Program-made: the position numbers and the translations under genes | Assembly: GCA_913776195.1 (NCBI GenBank) | Contig: CAJYMH010000031.1 | Span: 1-64,000 of the forward strand | Direction of reading: 5' to 3' | Source of the DNA: an uncultured Caulobacter sp. | Lineage (GTDB): Bacteria > Pseudomonadota > Alphaproteobacteria > Caulobacterales > Caulobacteraceae | DNA: 64,000 nt | Shown: in pieces, positions 34,037-37,596 of the stretch | How positions within the stretch are numbered: the first letter of the stretch is position 1 | Layout of the letters: the number at the start of each line of letters is the position of its first letter | The notes under the pieces: model-generated | What the model was told of the DNA's origin: nothing | Database searches by the model: none | The model's input: the letters and a program-made list of their open reading frames with translations, nothing else

Positions 34037-34212
34037 CCGTTAGGCGTGGGTTCCAGAACGCTCACGCGCCGATGGGCGACAGCCCAATGAGGCCCTGAAA
34101 CTTATCCACAGGTGATGCCGGCCGCTCGGGTCGGATCGAGAACGTAGGGTGAACCAAGAAAGAAAATGAAGTGGATCAGTCATCTAGCCGTCACACTTAA
34201 ACTCGGCGCAGC
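34037..34212. other. Gene-free stretch with a DnaA box
   Basis: No ORF of note lies here. The stretch carries a perfect DnaA box TTATCCACA at 34102-34110 and an A-rich patch (GAAAGAAAATGAAG) around 34160. I see no clear terminator hairpin. Confidence 0.5.
34102..34110 (+). promoter_or_regulatory. Perfect DnaA box
   Basis: TTATCCACA matches the consensus DnaA-binding 9-mer exactly. It is solitary and sits in a small intergenic gap, so an origin is not suggested; regulation by DnaA or chance are both possible. Confidence 0.4.
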
Positions 34213-34548
34213 TTAGCTCTGCTGGAAGTCGCCGGCCCCCTGGCTGCTGGGCGGAAGCCCGACGAGGCCCATGAATACGGGATCACCCGCGTCCTGAAGG
34301 ACGAAGGCGTCGCCGCCCCATTCGAACACAGCCCCCGGCGTCGAGGGCCAGCCCTGGGCGACGAGATTGAGCAGGTCGCCCCAGGGCAAGGACGCGCCGT
34401 CCGACCCCGCCTTCATGATCAGGTCGCCGATCCTCAGGAAGGCGACGCCGGGCGAGGCCTTCATGGAAATTAGATCACCCACGCTAAGGGAGGCGGCGGC
34501 CCCGCTAGCCTCCATGGTGATCGGCCAAAACTTCGCGAAATCGAACAT
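34213..34548 (-). CDS. Small protein with imperfect internal repeats, unknown function
   Basis: A 111-residue protein I do not recognise. The central part contains at least three and perhaps four imperfect repeats of about 15-17 residues, each with a hydrophobic-x-x-GDL/F core: SLSVGDLISMKASPG, FLRIGDLIMKAGSDG, SLPWGDLLNLVAQ and FEWGGDAFVLQDAGD. The pattern suggests stacked beta-hairpins. No signal peptide or membrane helix is seen. A GGGGGCGAA lies upstream of the ATG. The frame is better balanced in composition than the shadow ORFs nearby, supporting a real gene. Confidence 0.55.
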   Translation of the reverse strand: MFDFAKFWPITMEASGAAASLSVGDLISMKASPGVAFLRIGDLIMKAGSDGASLPWGDLLNLVAQGWPSTPGAVFEWGGDAFVLQDAGDPVFMGLVGLPPSSQGAGDFQQS

Positions 34549-34620: not shown

Positions 34621-35565
34621 TCAAACCGCCAGCGCTTCAATCCGCTCGAACAGGGCCGCCGTGGCGTCGATCCCGGTGAAGCGCTTCAGCTGTTGCGCGC
34701 CGGTGGGGGAGGTGACGTTGATCTCGGTCATGTAGTCGCCGATCACGTCGATGCCGACGAACAGCAGGCCGCGCGCCTTCAGCTCCGGCCCGATGATGGC
34801 GCACAGCTCCTTGTCGCGGGCGGTGAGCTCGAACGGATGGGCCGTGCCGCCGCGGGCGAGGTTGGAGCGCACCTGCCCCTCGGCCGGGACGCGGTTGATG
34901 CCGCCCACCGGCTCGCCGTCGATCAGCAGGATACGCTTGTCGCCCTTGCTGACGGCTGGGACGAACTTCTGCACCACCACCTGATCGCGGCTGGCCATGC
35001 CGTGCAGTTCTAGCATGGCGTCCAGATTAGGATCTTCCGGTTTCAGCCGCACGACGCCCAGACCGCCCAGGCCGTGCAGCGGCTTCAGCACCACGTCGCC
35101 GTGGCGGGCGCGGAAGTCGTAGATCGCCTCGCGGTCGCCGGTGATCAGGGTCGGCGGCTGCACCCCCGGGAAGCCGGTGACGAACAATTTTTCCGGGGCG
35201 TTGCGCACCTCGGCCGGATTGTTGACCACCAGGGTCTTGGGGTGCACCCGCTCCAGAAGGTGGGTGGCGGTGATGTAGTGCATATCGAAGGGCGGGTCCT
35301 GGCGCATCAGGATCACGTCCACGTCATCGGCCAGATCCAGAACCTCCACTGGGCCCAGGGTCGCGTGGTCGCCTTGGATCGCCCGGATCCCCAGCTTGTG
35401 GGCGCGGGCGAACACCCGACCGTCTTCTAGGCTCAGCTTGTCAGGGGTGTAGAACCATAGCGAGTGGCCGCGCTCTTGCGCCGTCAACATCATCAGGAAG
35501 GTGGTGTCGGACTGGATGTTGACCCCTTGGATGGGGTCCATCTGGACGGCGACGCGCAGGGACAT
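34621..35565 (-). CDS. gshB: Glutathione synthetase
   Basis: GshB joins gamma-glutamylcysteine and glycine using ATP, the last step of glutathione synthesis. The N-terminus [21 protein letters not shown], the segment [20 protein letters not shown] and the ATP-grasp region [17 protein letters not shown] are diagnostic, as are [22 protein letters not shown] and [19 protein letters not shown] near the C-terminus. The 314-residue length is usual. TAGGAG lies before the ATG. It follows sirB1 in the rsmI-yraN-sirB1-gshB order common in alphaproteobacteria. Confidence 0.97.
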
Positions 35566-35619: not shown

Positions 35620-36435
35620 CTAGTTCAGCCGCATCCGGACGCGTTCGCGCTGGGCGCGGGCGGCGATGGCCGCGCCTCCATCCAGGAACTGAGCTTGGGC
35701 CAGGGCCTGCAGCGCCCCGGCCAGGGCGCCCTGGCCCTCGCGCGCGGTGGCCACGTCCAGCCACGGACGGTGGTCGGTGGGGTCGAGCAGGGCGCGGCGC
35801 AGGGCCGAGCGCTCGGCCCGGGCCCAGTCACCGGCCGCCTGGGCCCGGGCGAAGATGTTGTTCTGCAGGCGGATCAGTACGCTGCGGTCCGGCGCGGGCG
35901 CCATCAGCACGTCCAGCTTGGCCGCCACGTCGGGGGTCAGGCCGGTGCGCAGGGCGCGTCGGGTCAATTCCGACGGCAGGACCACGCGCCCCTCGCTGAA
36001 GGGATCGAGGGCCAGGGGCCCCTCTTCGGTCTCGATGCGCAGCAGGAAGTGACCGGGAAAATCGACGCCCTGAAGGTTCAGCCCTGTCTTTCGGGCGGCG
36101 TGCAGATAGAAGATCCCCAGCGCTACCGGCAGGCCCTTGCGCCGATCGGCCACCGAGATGATGTCAGCGTTATCTGGGTGGTCGTAAGTGATCAGGTCGC
36201 CCGACAGGCGAAGGTCGCCAGACAGGGCCTCAGCGATCGCCTCCTCGGGACTTTCGCGCTCCAGGCGGACGCGGACGCGGGCCACCGCCTCGTCGGCCAG
36301 GTTGCGGGCGAGCTGCGCATCGCGGGACGGATCATCATGTACGGCGCAGGCGAGCGCCGCCTCGAACAACGGAAAGTCCGCGTCCCCAGCGCGCCCGGCG
36401 GCGCTCAGCAGCTCTTCCGCTTCTAGGCGGTCCAA
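35620..36435 (-). CDS. SirB1 family protein (transglutaminase-like plus TPR)
   Basis: A 271-residue protein. The first two thirds carry the SirB1 transglutaminase-like core: DNADIISVADRRKGLPVALG, IFYLHAARKTGLNLQGVDFP and GHFLLRI; the catalytic cysteine of true transglutaminases is not evident. The last 90 residues are helical TPR-like repeats (NNIFARAQAAGDWARAERSA). Function is unknown, though the gene often neighbours prmC or gshB. The start is TTG at 36435, with AAGGGA 6 bases upstream; this site lies inside the decayed yraN. Confidence 0.88.
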   Translation of the reverse strand: MDRLEAEELLSAAGRAGDADFPLFEAALACAVHDDPSRDAQLARNLADEAVARVRVRLERESPEEAIAEALSGDLRLSGDLITYDHPDNADIISVADRRKGLPVALGIFYLHAARKTGLNLQGVDFPGHFLLRIETEEGPLALDPFSEGRVVLPSELTRRALRTGLTPDVAAKLDVLMAPAPDRSVLIRLQNNIFARAQAAGDWARAERSALRRALLDPTDHRPWLDVATAREGQGALAGALQALAQAQFLDGGAAIAARAQRERVRMRLN

Positions 36436-36439
36436 GGCG

Positions 36440-36686
36440 ATCCCTTCCGGTCGACTCTGAAGCGCCGACCCAAGCGTCGGGAATATGACGTGGTGCGCGC
36501 CTGGGGGCGAGCGCGATCAAATCGAGACGCACTGCGACGTTTCGCAGCGACGGCCGCAGTGCGGCTATGTGAGCGCGCCGCGCGGCGAAGGCGTTCCCGC
36601 TCGTCGAAGCGATCCGCCGCCAGAGCCTCGCCCCGACGGCCGGAAAGCCGCGCGGCCGCGCCGCGTGCGCAGCGGACCTGGCTCAT
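36440..36686 (-). pseudogene. yraN: Decayed yraN (UPF0102) remnant
   Basis: The gene between rsmI and sirB1 is expected to be yraN, a nuclease-fold protein of about 120 residues. Here the first frame gives a YraN-like start (MSQVRCARGAAARLSGRRGE), then loses similarity. A second frame of the same strand gives the YraN C-terminus: AFAARRAHIAALRPSLRNVA and VRLDLIALAPRRAPRHIPDAW. The central region with the GEIDLIA and FVEVK motifs is missing in every frame, so about 40 codons are deleted as well as the frame shifted. Simple sequencing error would not remove the middle. The remaining 87-residue ORF (36423-36686) is probably not functional. Confidence 0.65.
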
Positions 36687-36688
36687 CC

Positions 36689-37558
36689 TCAGGCGCCCTT
36701 CAGGTCCAGGGCGCGACGATAGAGCTCGCGGCGGGGCAGGCCCAGGGCCTTGGCCACTTCCGATGCGGCGTCGGCGGGCCCCATGCGGGTCAGGGCCTCG
36801 GCCAGAGCCGCGTCGGCGTCCTCGGCCGTTGCGGCCTTCTCCTCGCCCGGTCCGACCAGGATGACGATCTCGCCCTTGGGGTTGTCCAGCTTGGGGTCGG
36901 CGGCCAGGTCGGCCAGGGTCCCTCGGATGCAGGTCTCGTGCAGCTTGGTGATCTCGCGGGCGACGGCCGCCTGACGGTCGCCGCCGAAAACGGCCGCCAT
37001 GTCGGCCAGGCTGTCAGCCAGGCGCGGGCCGCTTTCGTAGAAGATCAAGGTGGCGCGCACCGCCGCGAACTCGCTCAGGAAGGTGCGCCGCGCCGCGCTC
37101 TTGGGCGGAGCGAAGCCCACGAACATGAAGCGGTCGGTGGGCAGCCCCCCCAGGGTCAGGGCCGCCAGGGCCGCCGAGGCGCCGGGGATCGGGTAGACGG
37201 TGAAGCCCGCCGCCACCACTTCCTTGACCAGCCGGTAGCCGGGATCCGAGACCAGCGGGGTGCCGGCGTCGGAGACCAGGGCCACCCGGCCTCCGCCTTC
37301 CAGGGCCGCCATCACCTTCGGCCGCGCTCGTTCGGCGGCGTGCTCGTCATAGCGCTCCATGCGCTTGGACAGGTTGTAGGCCGACAGCAGCTTGCCGGTG
37401 ACCCGGGTGTCCTCAGCCAGCACCAGGTCAGCGGCGTTCAGCACGTCCAGCGCCCGCAGGGTGATGTCGCGCAGATTGCCGATCGGCGTGGCGACCACAT
37501 AGAGGCCGGGCGCGAGCGGGGCGGTCGACAGGGCGGGCGGGGGCGGGTGCTGGGCCAT
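36689..37558 (-). CDS. rsmI: 16S rRNA (cytidine-1402 2'-O)-methyltransferase
   Basis: RsmI methylates the 2'-OH of C1402 in the 30S decoding centre with SAM. The tetrapyrrole-methylase fold is clear: GLYVVATPIGNLRDITLRAL, LAEDTRVTGKLLSAY, VALVSDAGTPLVSDPGYRLV, PIPGASAALAALTLGGLPTD and RFMFVGFAPPKS. The C-terminal segment ends in LGLPRRELYRRALDLKGA. The second ATG (37558, MAQHPPPP) is preferred over 37570 because GAGGG lies 5 bases upstream. Its usual partner yraN directly downstream is degenerate here. Confidence 0.95.
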   Translation of the reverse strand: MAQHPPPPALSTAPLAPGLYVVATPIGNLRDITLRALDVLNAADLVLAEDTRVTGKLLSAYNLSKRMERYDEHAAERARPKVMAALEGGGRVALVSDAGTPLVSDPGYRLVKEVVAAGFTVYPIPGASAALAALTLGGLPTDRFMFVGFAPPKSAARRTFLSEFAAVRATLIFYESGPRLADSLADMAAVFGGDRQAAVAREITKLHETCIRGTLADLAADPKLDNPKGEIVILVGPGEEKAATAEDADAALAEALTRMGPADAASEVAKALGLPRRELYRRALDLKGA

Positions 37559-37596
37559 CGACCCTCGCATAACAGGTTACGCCGCCGGGACGAAAG

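Follow-up and report, generated by a model that had tools for sequence, protein, structure and literature searches.

ComM is the branch-migration helicase of natural transformation, and ComEC is the inner-membrane channel for the incoming DNA. A third protein, the small PD-(D/E)XK nuclease YraN, is described in the relevant part of PMC12455585, which cites a preprint by Hardy et al. 2024, as a helicase-associated nuclease fostering extended recombination by natural transformation. The motif of YraN is ID-EVK (PMC1189080). The comM gene has been repeatedly inactivated by Tn7-like (Tn6022) and Tsy elements (PMC10293859).

We analyzed the yraN locus on a window of 64,000 nucleotides (the whole stretch of DNA under study) from an uncultured Caulobacter sp. 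What is left of yraN in this genome is a remnant, located where the gene normally lies, between rsmI and sirB1. We consider it probable, at roughly two chances in three, that a small Caulobacter clade has lost more of the late natural-transformation pathway than yraN and that this pseudogene belongs to that wider loss. As references for the alignment, we used the intact yraN genes (124 codons, 124 aa) of the close relatives G009, G013, and G083, which share the gene order. The locus is composed of the following features:

36689..37570, minus strand: rsmI, intact (ORF list, Pfam)
36615..36686, minus strand: yraN codons 1-24 in the original frame, MSQVRCARGAAARLSGRRGEALAA (alignment to G009, G013, and G083)
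36600..36614, minus strand: yraN deletion scar, 15 nt (GATCGCTTCGACGAG) replacing the 162 nt of codons 25-78 with GEID and EVK (alignment)
36579..36599, minus strand: yraN codons RERLRRA in the original frame (alignment)
36575..36580, minus strand: one-base insertion in yraN with resulting frameshift; its exact position within a GC repeat is ambiguous (alignment)
36458..36574, minus strand: C-terminal yraN codons in the shifted frame, ending at the relatives' stop position, here TCA (alignment)
36423..36686, minus strand: 87-aa ORF left by the decay of yraN, its stop overlapping the first sirB1 codons; no Pfam match (ORF list, Pfam search)
36436..36457, minus strand: spacer between yraN and sirB1, containing the ribosome site of sirB1 (GGAAGGGA); in the relatives, this lies outside yraN (relatives' spacer sequences)
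35620..36435, minus strand: sirB1 (Transglut_core2 and TPR), intact, TTG start (ORF list, Pfam)

That yraN decayed in place between rsmI and sirB1, as the original prediction held, is borne out by the alignment to these orthologues, which also defines the deletion: the 162 nt of codons 25-78 in the relatives correspond to 15 nt in the window, an in-frame net loss of 147 nt. GEID and EVK, which belong to the PD-(D/E)XK core, both lie within the lost codons, and the central nuclease motifs are thus gone, as had been supposed. Codons 1-24, the RERLRRA stretch, and the C-terminal codons are kept. The placement of start and C-terminus in two frames was likewise exact: the frame opened by the ATG holds codons 1-24 and RERLRRA, while AHIAALRPSLRNVAVRLDLIALAPRRAPRHIPDAWVGA is read in a different frame past the +1 insertion that follows RERLRRA. 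The stop codon is gone as well, TCA standing where G013 has TAG. The scar is compatible with two in-frame deletions, of 21 and 126 nt, or with a single deletion plus filler.

The remnant pieces and their flanks share 84-94% DNA identity with G013 and G009, and this identity, taken with the synteny, is far beyond chance. A Pfam search of the 87-aa ORF gave no match, PF02021 included. The suggested search for a second copy found no PF02021 elsewhere in the 3.27-Mb assembly of 36 contigs, which is 83.75% complete, such that a copy may lie in unassembled DNA. With alignable DNA at the orthologous position, an intact orthologue in close relatives, and neither a PF02021 match nor the ID-EVK motif nor an uninterrupted frame, the yraN of the window is a degraded pseudogene and not a functional YraN member.

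Of the 75 genomes of the genus, 71 contain PF02021 (59 of 60 if only the good genomes are counted), and rsmI upstream and sirB1 downstream of yraN were confirmed at 69 of 72 loci. Besides the genome of the window, G016, G027, and G070 are PF02021-negative, all of them fragmented. G027 was rejected as a second case of yraN loss; rsmI is missing there too, so that the locus as a whole is probably missing. The lysine of EVK and the glutamate of GEID are each kept in 71 of the 72 YraN sequences, and both exceptions are G009 (EVK to EVQ), whose gene has lost these catalytic residues and is otherwise open.

In the intact relative G083, the genes are arranged as rsmI-yraN-sirB1-gshB-hypothetical-comM. 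Beyond sirB1, the window contains:

34621..35565, minus strand: intact gene of 314 aa between sirB1 and the comM site, presumably gshB-like; homologue in G083 confirmed
34213..34548, minus strand: 111-aa ORF, apparently shortened (ORF list; partial DNA match to G083)
34037..34094, minus strand: deleted comM site, about 60 nt where G083 has a 508-codon gene, both flanks conserved (comparison with G083)

The 111-aa ORF resembles both ends (VKASPG-type repeats) of a 246-aa ORF that adjoins comM in G083, and seems to be without its middle.

The 1.5-kb comM gene, intact in G083, has been removed from the window by a clean deletion 2 kb from the yraN remnant. The comEC gene of the same genome lacks residues 47-481 and shows frame breaks, within one contig (C25, at about 82.5 kb) and away from the contig of the window. 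Two other late competence genes, comM and comEC, are therefore inactivated in the genome that carries the yraN remnant. In the closed genome G013, comM was lost in a 2.0-kb deletion whose breakpoints are unlike those of the window, and only 40 codons of comEC are left; in G083, comEC is intact. G009 has lost the N-terminal part of comM and kept 138 C-terminal residues. These changes in comM and comEC are lesions, not missing data. The differing breakpoints may reflect either a shared first lesion that was later enlarged or a separate origin in each species. A tree of the concatenated neighbours reads ((window,G013),G009),G083 with supports of 96 and 99; all three species with com lesions fall into one clade, and their sister G083 is intact.

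The comEC gene of G009 has a single frame break near residue 382 and an unremarkable dN/dS; as this ratio is not raised, the break is either recent or a sequencing error. A loss of dprA in the genome of the window was considered and withdrawn, since the plsY-dprA-topA region, absent from its assembly, is an assembly gap; dprA is intact in G009 and G013.

We read these lesions as a stepwise loss along the late natural-transformation pathway. comM and comEC would have failed first, the lesions differing from species to species. Once the channel and the helicase had been lost, YraN would be left without a task, and its gene would be exposed to drift and decay. The outcome in G009 would be a gene that stays open and loses its catalytic residues; in the species of the window, the whole nuclease core would have been lost in frame, followed by frame and stop, an order that we infer. 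Judging by gene content, the species of this clade are probably incapable of transformation. The original prediction had missed the losses of comM, which lies in the same window, and comEC; these losses more plausibly account for the decay of yraN. In the intact relatives, yraN belongs to the same gene cluster as comM.

Window-specific changes are distributed over the three codon positions as 3/2/4 in the retained yraN codons versus 6/4/48 in rsmI and sirB1 (p=0.02). Against yraN's own faster baseline, the same excess is not significant for the window alone (p=0.16), and pooled with G009 and G013 it is modest (p=0.014), with a grouping that was chosen after the data had been seen. Pairwise dN/dS values of yraN among G009, G013, and G083 were 0.14-0.18 and not raised relative to the unaffected pair G076-G019 (0.14), which served as the yardstick because synonymous sites seem saturated in distant yraN pairs across the genus. 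On this basis, we grade relaxed selection on yraN as likely only; the loss of ComM and ComEC would have relaxed it.

A disrupted or deleted comM together with an intact yraN was found in six other Caulobacter genomes (G005, G007, G021, G026, G078, and G098), all with intact comEC. In G005 (L218:2145-18792) and G098 (L220:2346-15545), comM is split near residue 280 by Tn7-like insertions of 13-17 kb, which encode TnsA-like, Mu-transposase C-terminal, TniB, and TniQ proteins; the G005 insertion also has a gene for a DNA methylase, and that of G098 one for a serine recombinase. In both G021 (L221, a 6-kb insertion) and G007 (L222, a frame break), comM is broken near residue 303. The parts of the split comM in G078 (L223) lie about 14 kb apart, and G026 (L219) retains only the first 23 residues.

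yraN might instead be an ordinary dispensable gene that decayed alone, with the comM and comEC lesions being coincidental and comM being often disrupted in the genus anyway. We regard this as unlikely, though it deserves weight. The six genomes that keep yraN beside a broken comM speak for it, as loss of comM alone does not quickly bring loss of yraN, and so does the dN/dS, which gives no sign of relaxed selection. G013, with an open, motif-bearing yraN despite the loss of both comM and comEC, likewise counts against a pathway loss. However, the only deleted and the only active-site-mutated yraN of the genus share one clade, the one that is also without comEC in well-assembled genomes, and the six genomes, with comEC and yraN intact, fit the idea that both comM and comEC must fail. 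As all cases belong to one clade, the association comes close to a single observation. As a lone gene loss, the decay of yraN would be ordinary; as part of a pathway loss, it is moderately interesting and supports a link between YraN and ComM. An assembly or sequencing error in an organism with an intact yraN is barely credible: the genome, in 36 contigs, reaches 83.75% completeness, and the one-base insertion taken alone could be an error, but yraN shows several separate changes between intact neighbours, the comM deletion is clean and 2 kb distant, that of comEC is on another contig, and comparable lesions occur in the closed genome G013.

Alternatively, the 87-aa ORF could be a small gene in its own right, newly arisen or retained, or a leader peptide frame whose translation couples that of sirB1 to rsmI, having been kept open for this role. 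We give this very little credence. The core deletion is indeed in frame, and the shifted ORF is open through the sirB1 start, but the ORF is without a family match and its shifted part without a conserved counterpart in the relatives. Such an ORF stayed open in 58% of simulated deletion and insertion trials with the G009 gene, although in 0% when the G013 and G083 spacers were used; the open frame therefore says little. A coupling role of the remnant ORF is at best possible. The original prediction had placed the TTG start and the ribosome site of sirB1 inside the remnant and taken them as a possible reason for the retention of yraN DNA. The shifted 87-aa ORF does overlap both, and the site looks embedded only because this frame reads through the lost stop. 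In the three relatives G009, G013, and G083, sirB1 begins with TTG or GTG, and both this start and a purine-rich ribosome site are located in the spacer after the yraN stop, outside yraN proper. They consequently do not require yraN DNA, and the proposed reason for its retention finds no support.

On the reading of a pathway loss, the clade may be regarded as a natural experiment in which YraN is no longer under selection once ComM and ComEC have failed, with the active site lost in G009 and the core in the window. We hold this tentatively, somewhat short of even odds. If true, it would be evolutionary evidence that YraN serves mainly transformation, rather than general DNA repair, in these alphaproteobacteria. 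YraN is near-universal in the genus, and in the parts of the literature searched a single cited preprint is the basis for its cellular role. The co-decay of yraN with comM and comEC, along with the active-site loss in one sister species, lends independent evolutionary support to a role in transformation. G083, intact, and G009, G013, and the species of the window, broken to different degrees, form a species set for testing this role.

The YraN proteins of the relatives match PF02021 and 3fov (RPA0323), a solved structure of the YraN/UPF0102 family. The window copy resembles this family in its position between rsmI and sirB1 and in its N- and C-terminal sequence; in contrast, the whole ID-EVK core is absent and the frame is shifted. 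The described disruption of comM by Tn6022 and Tsy has its likeness in the Tn7-like elements in comM of other Caulobacter, whereas in the clade of the window comM has been deleted and no transposon remains. Repeated within-species losses of transformation in Legionella and Acinetobacter, as presented in the part of PMC11472951 considered here, are similar in involving large lineage changes with comM and comEC under discussion, whereas the present loss, read from gene content, lies between Caulobacter species and includes yraN.
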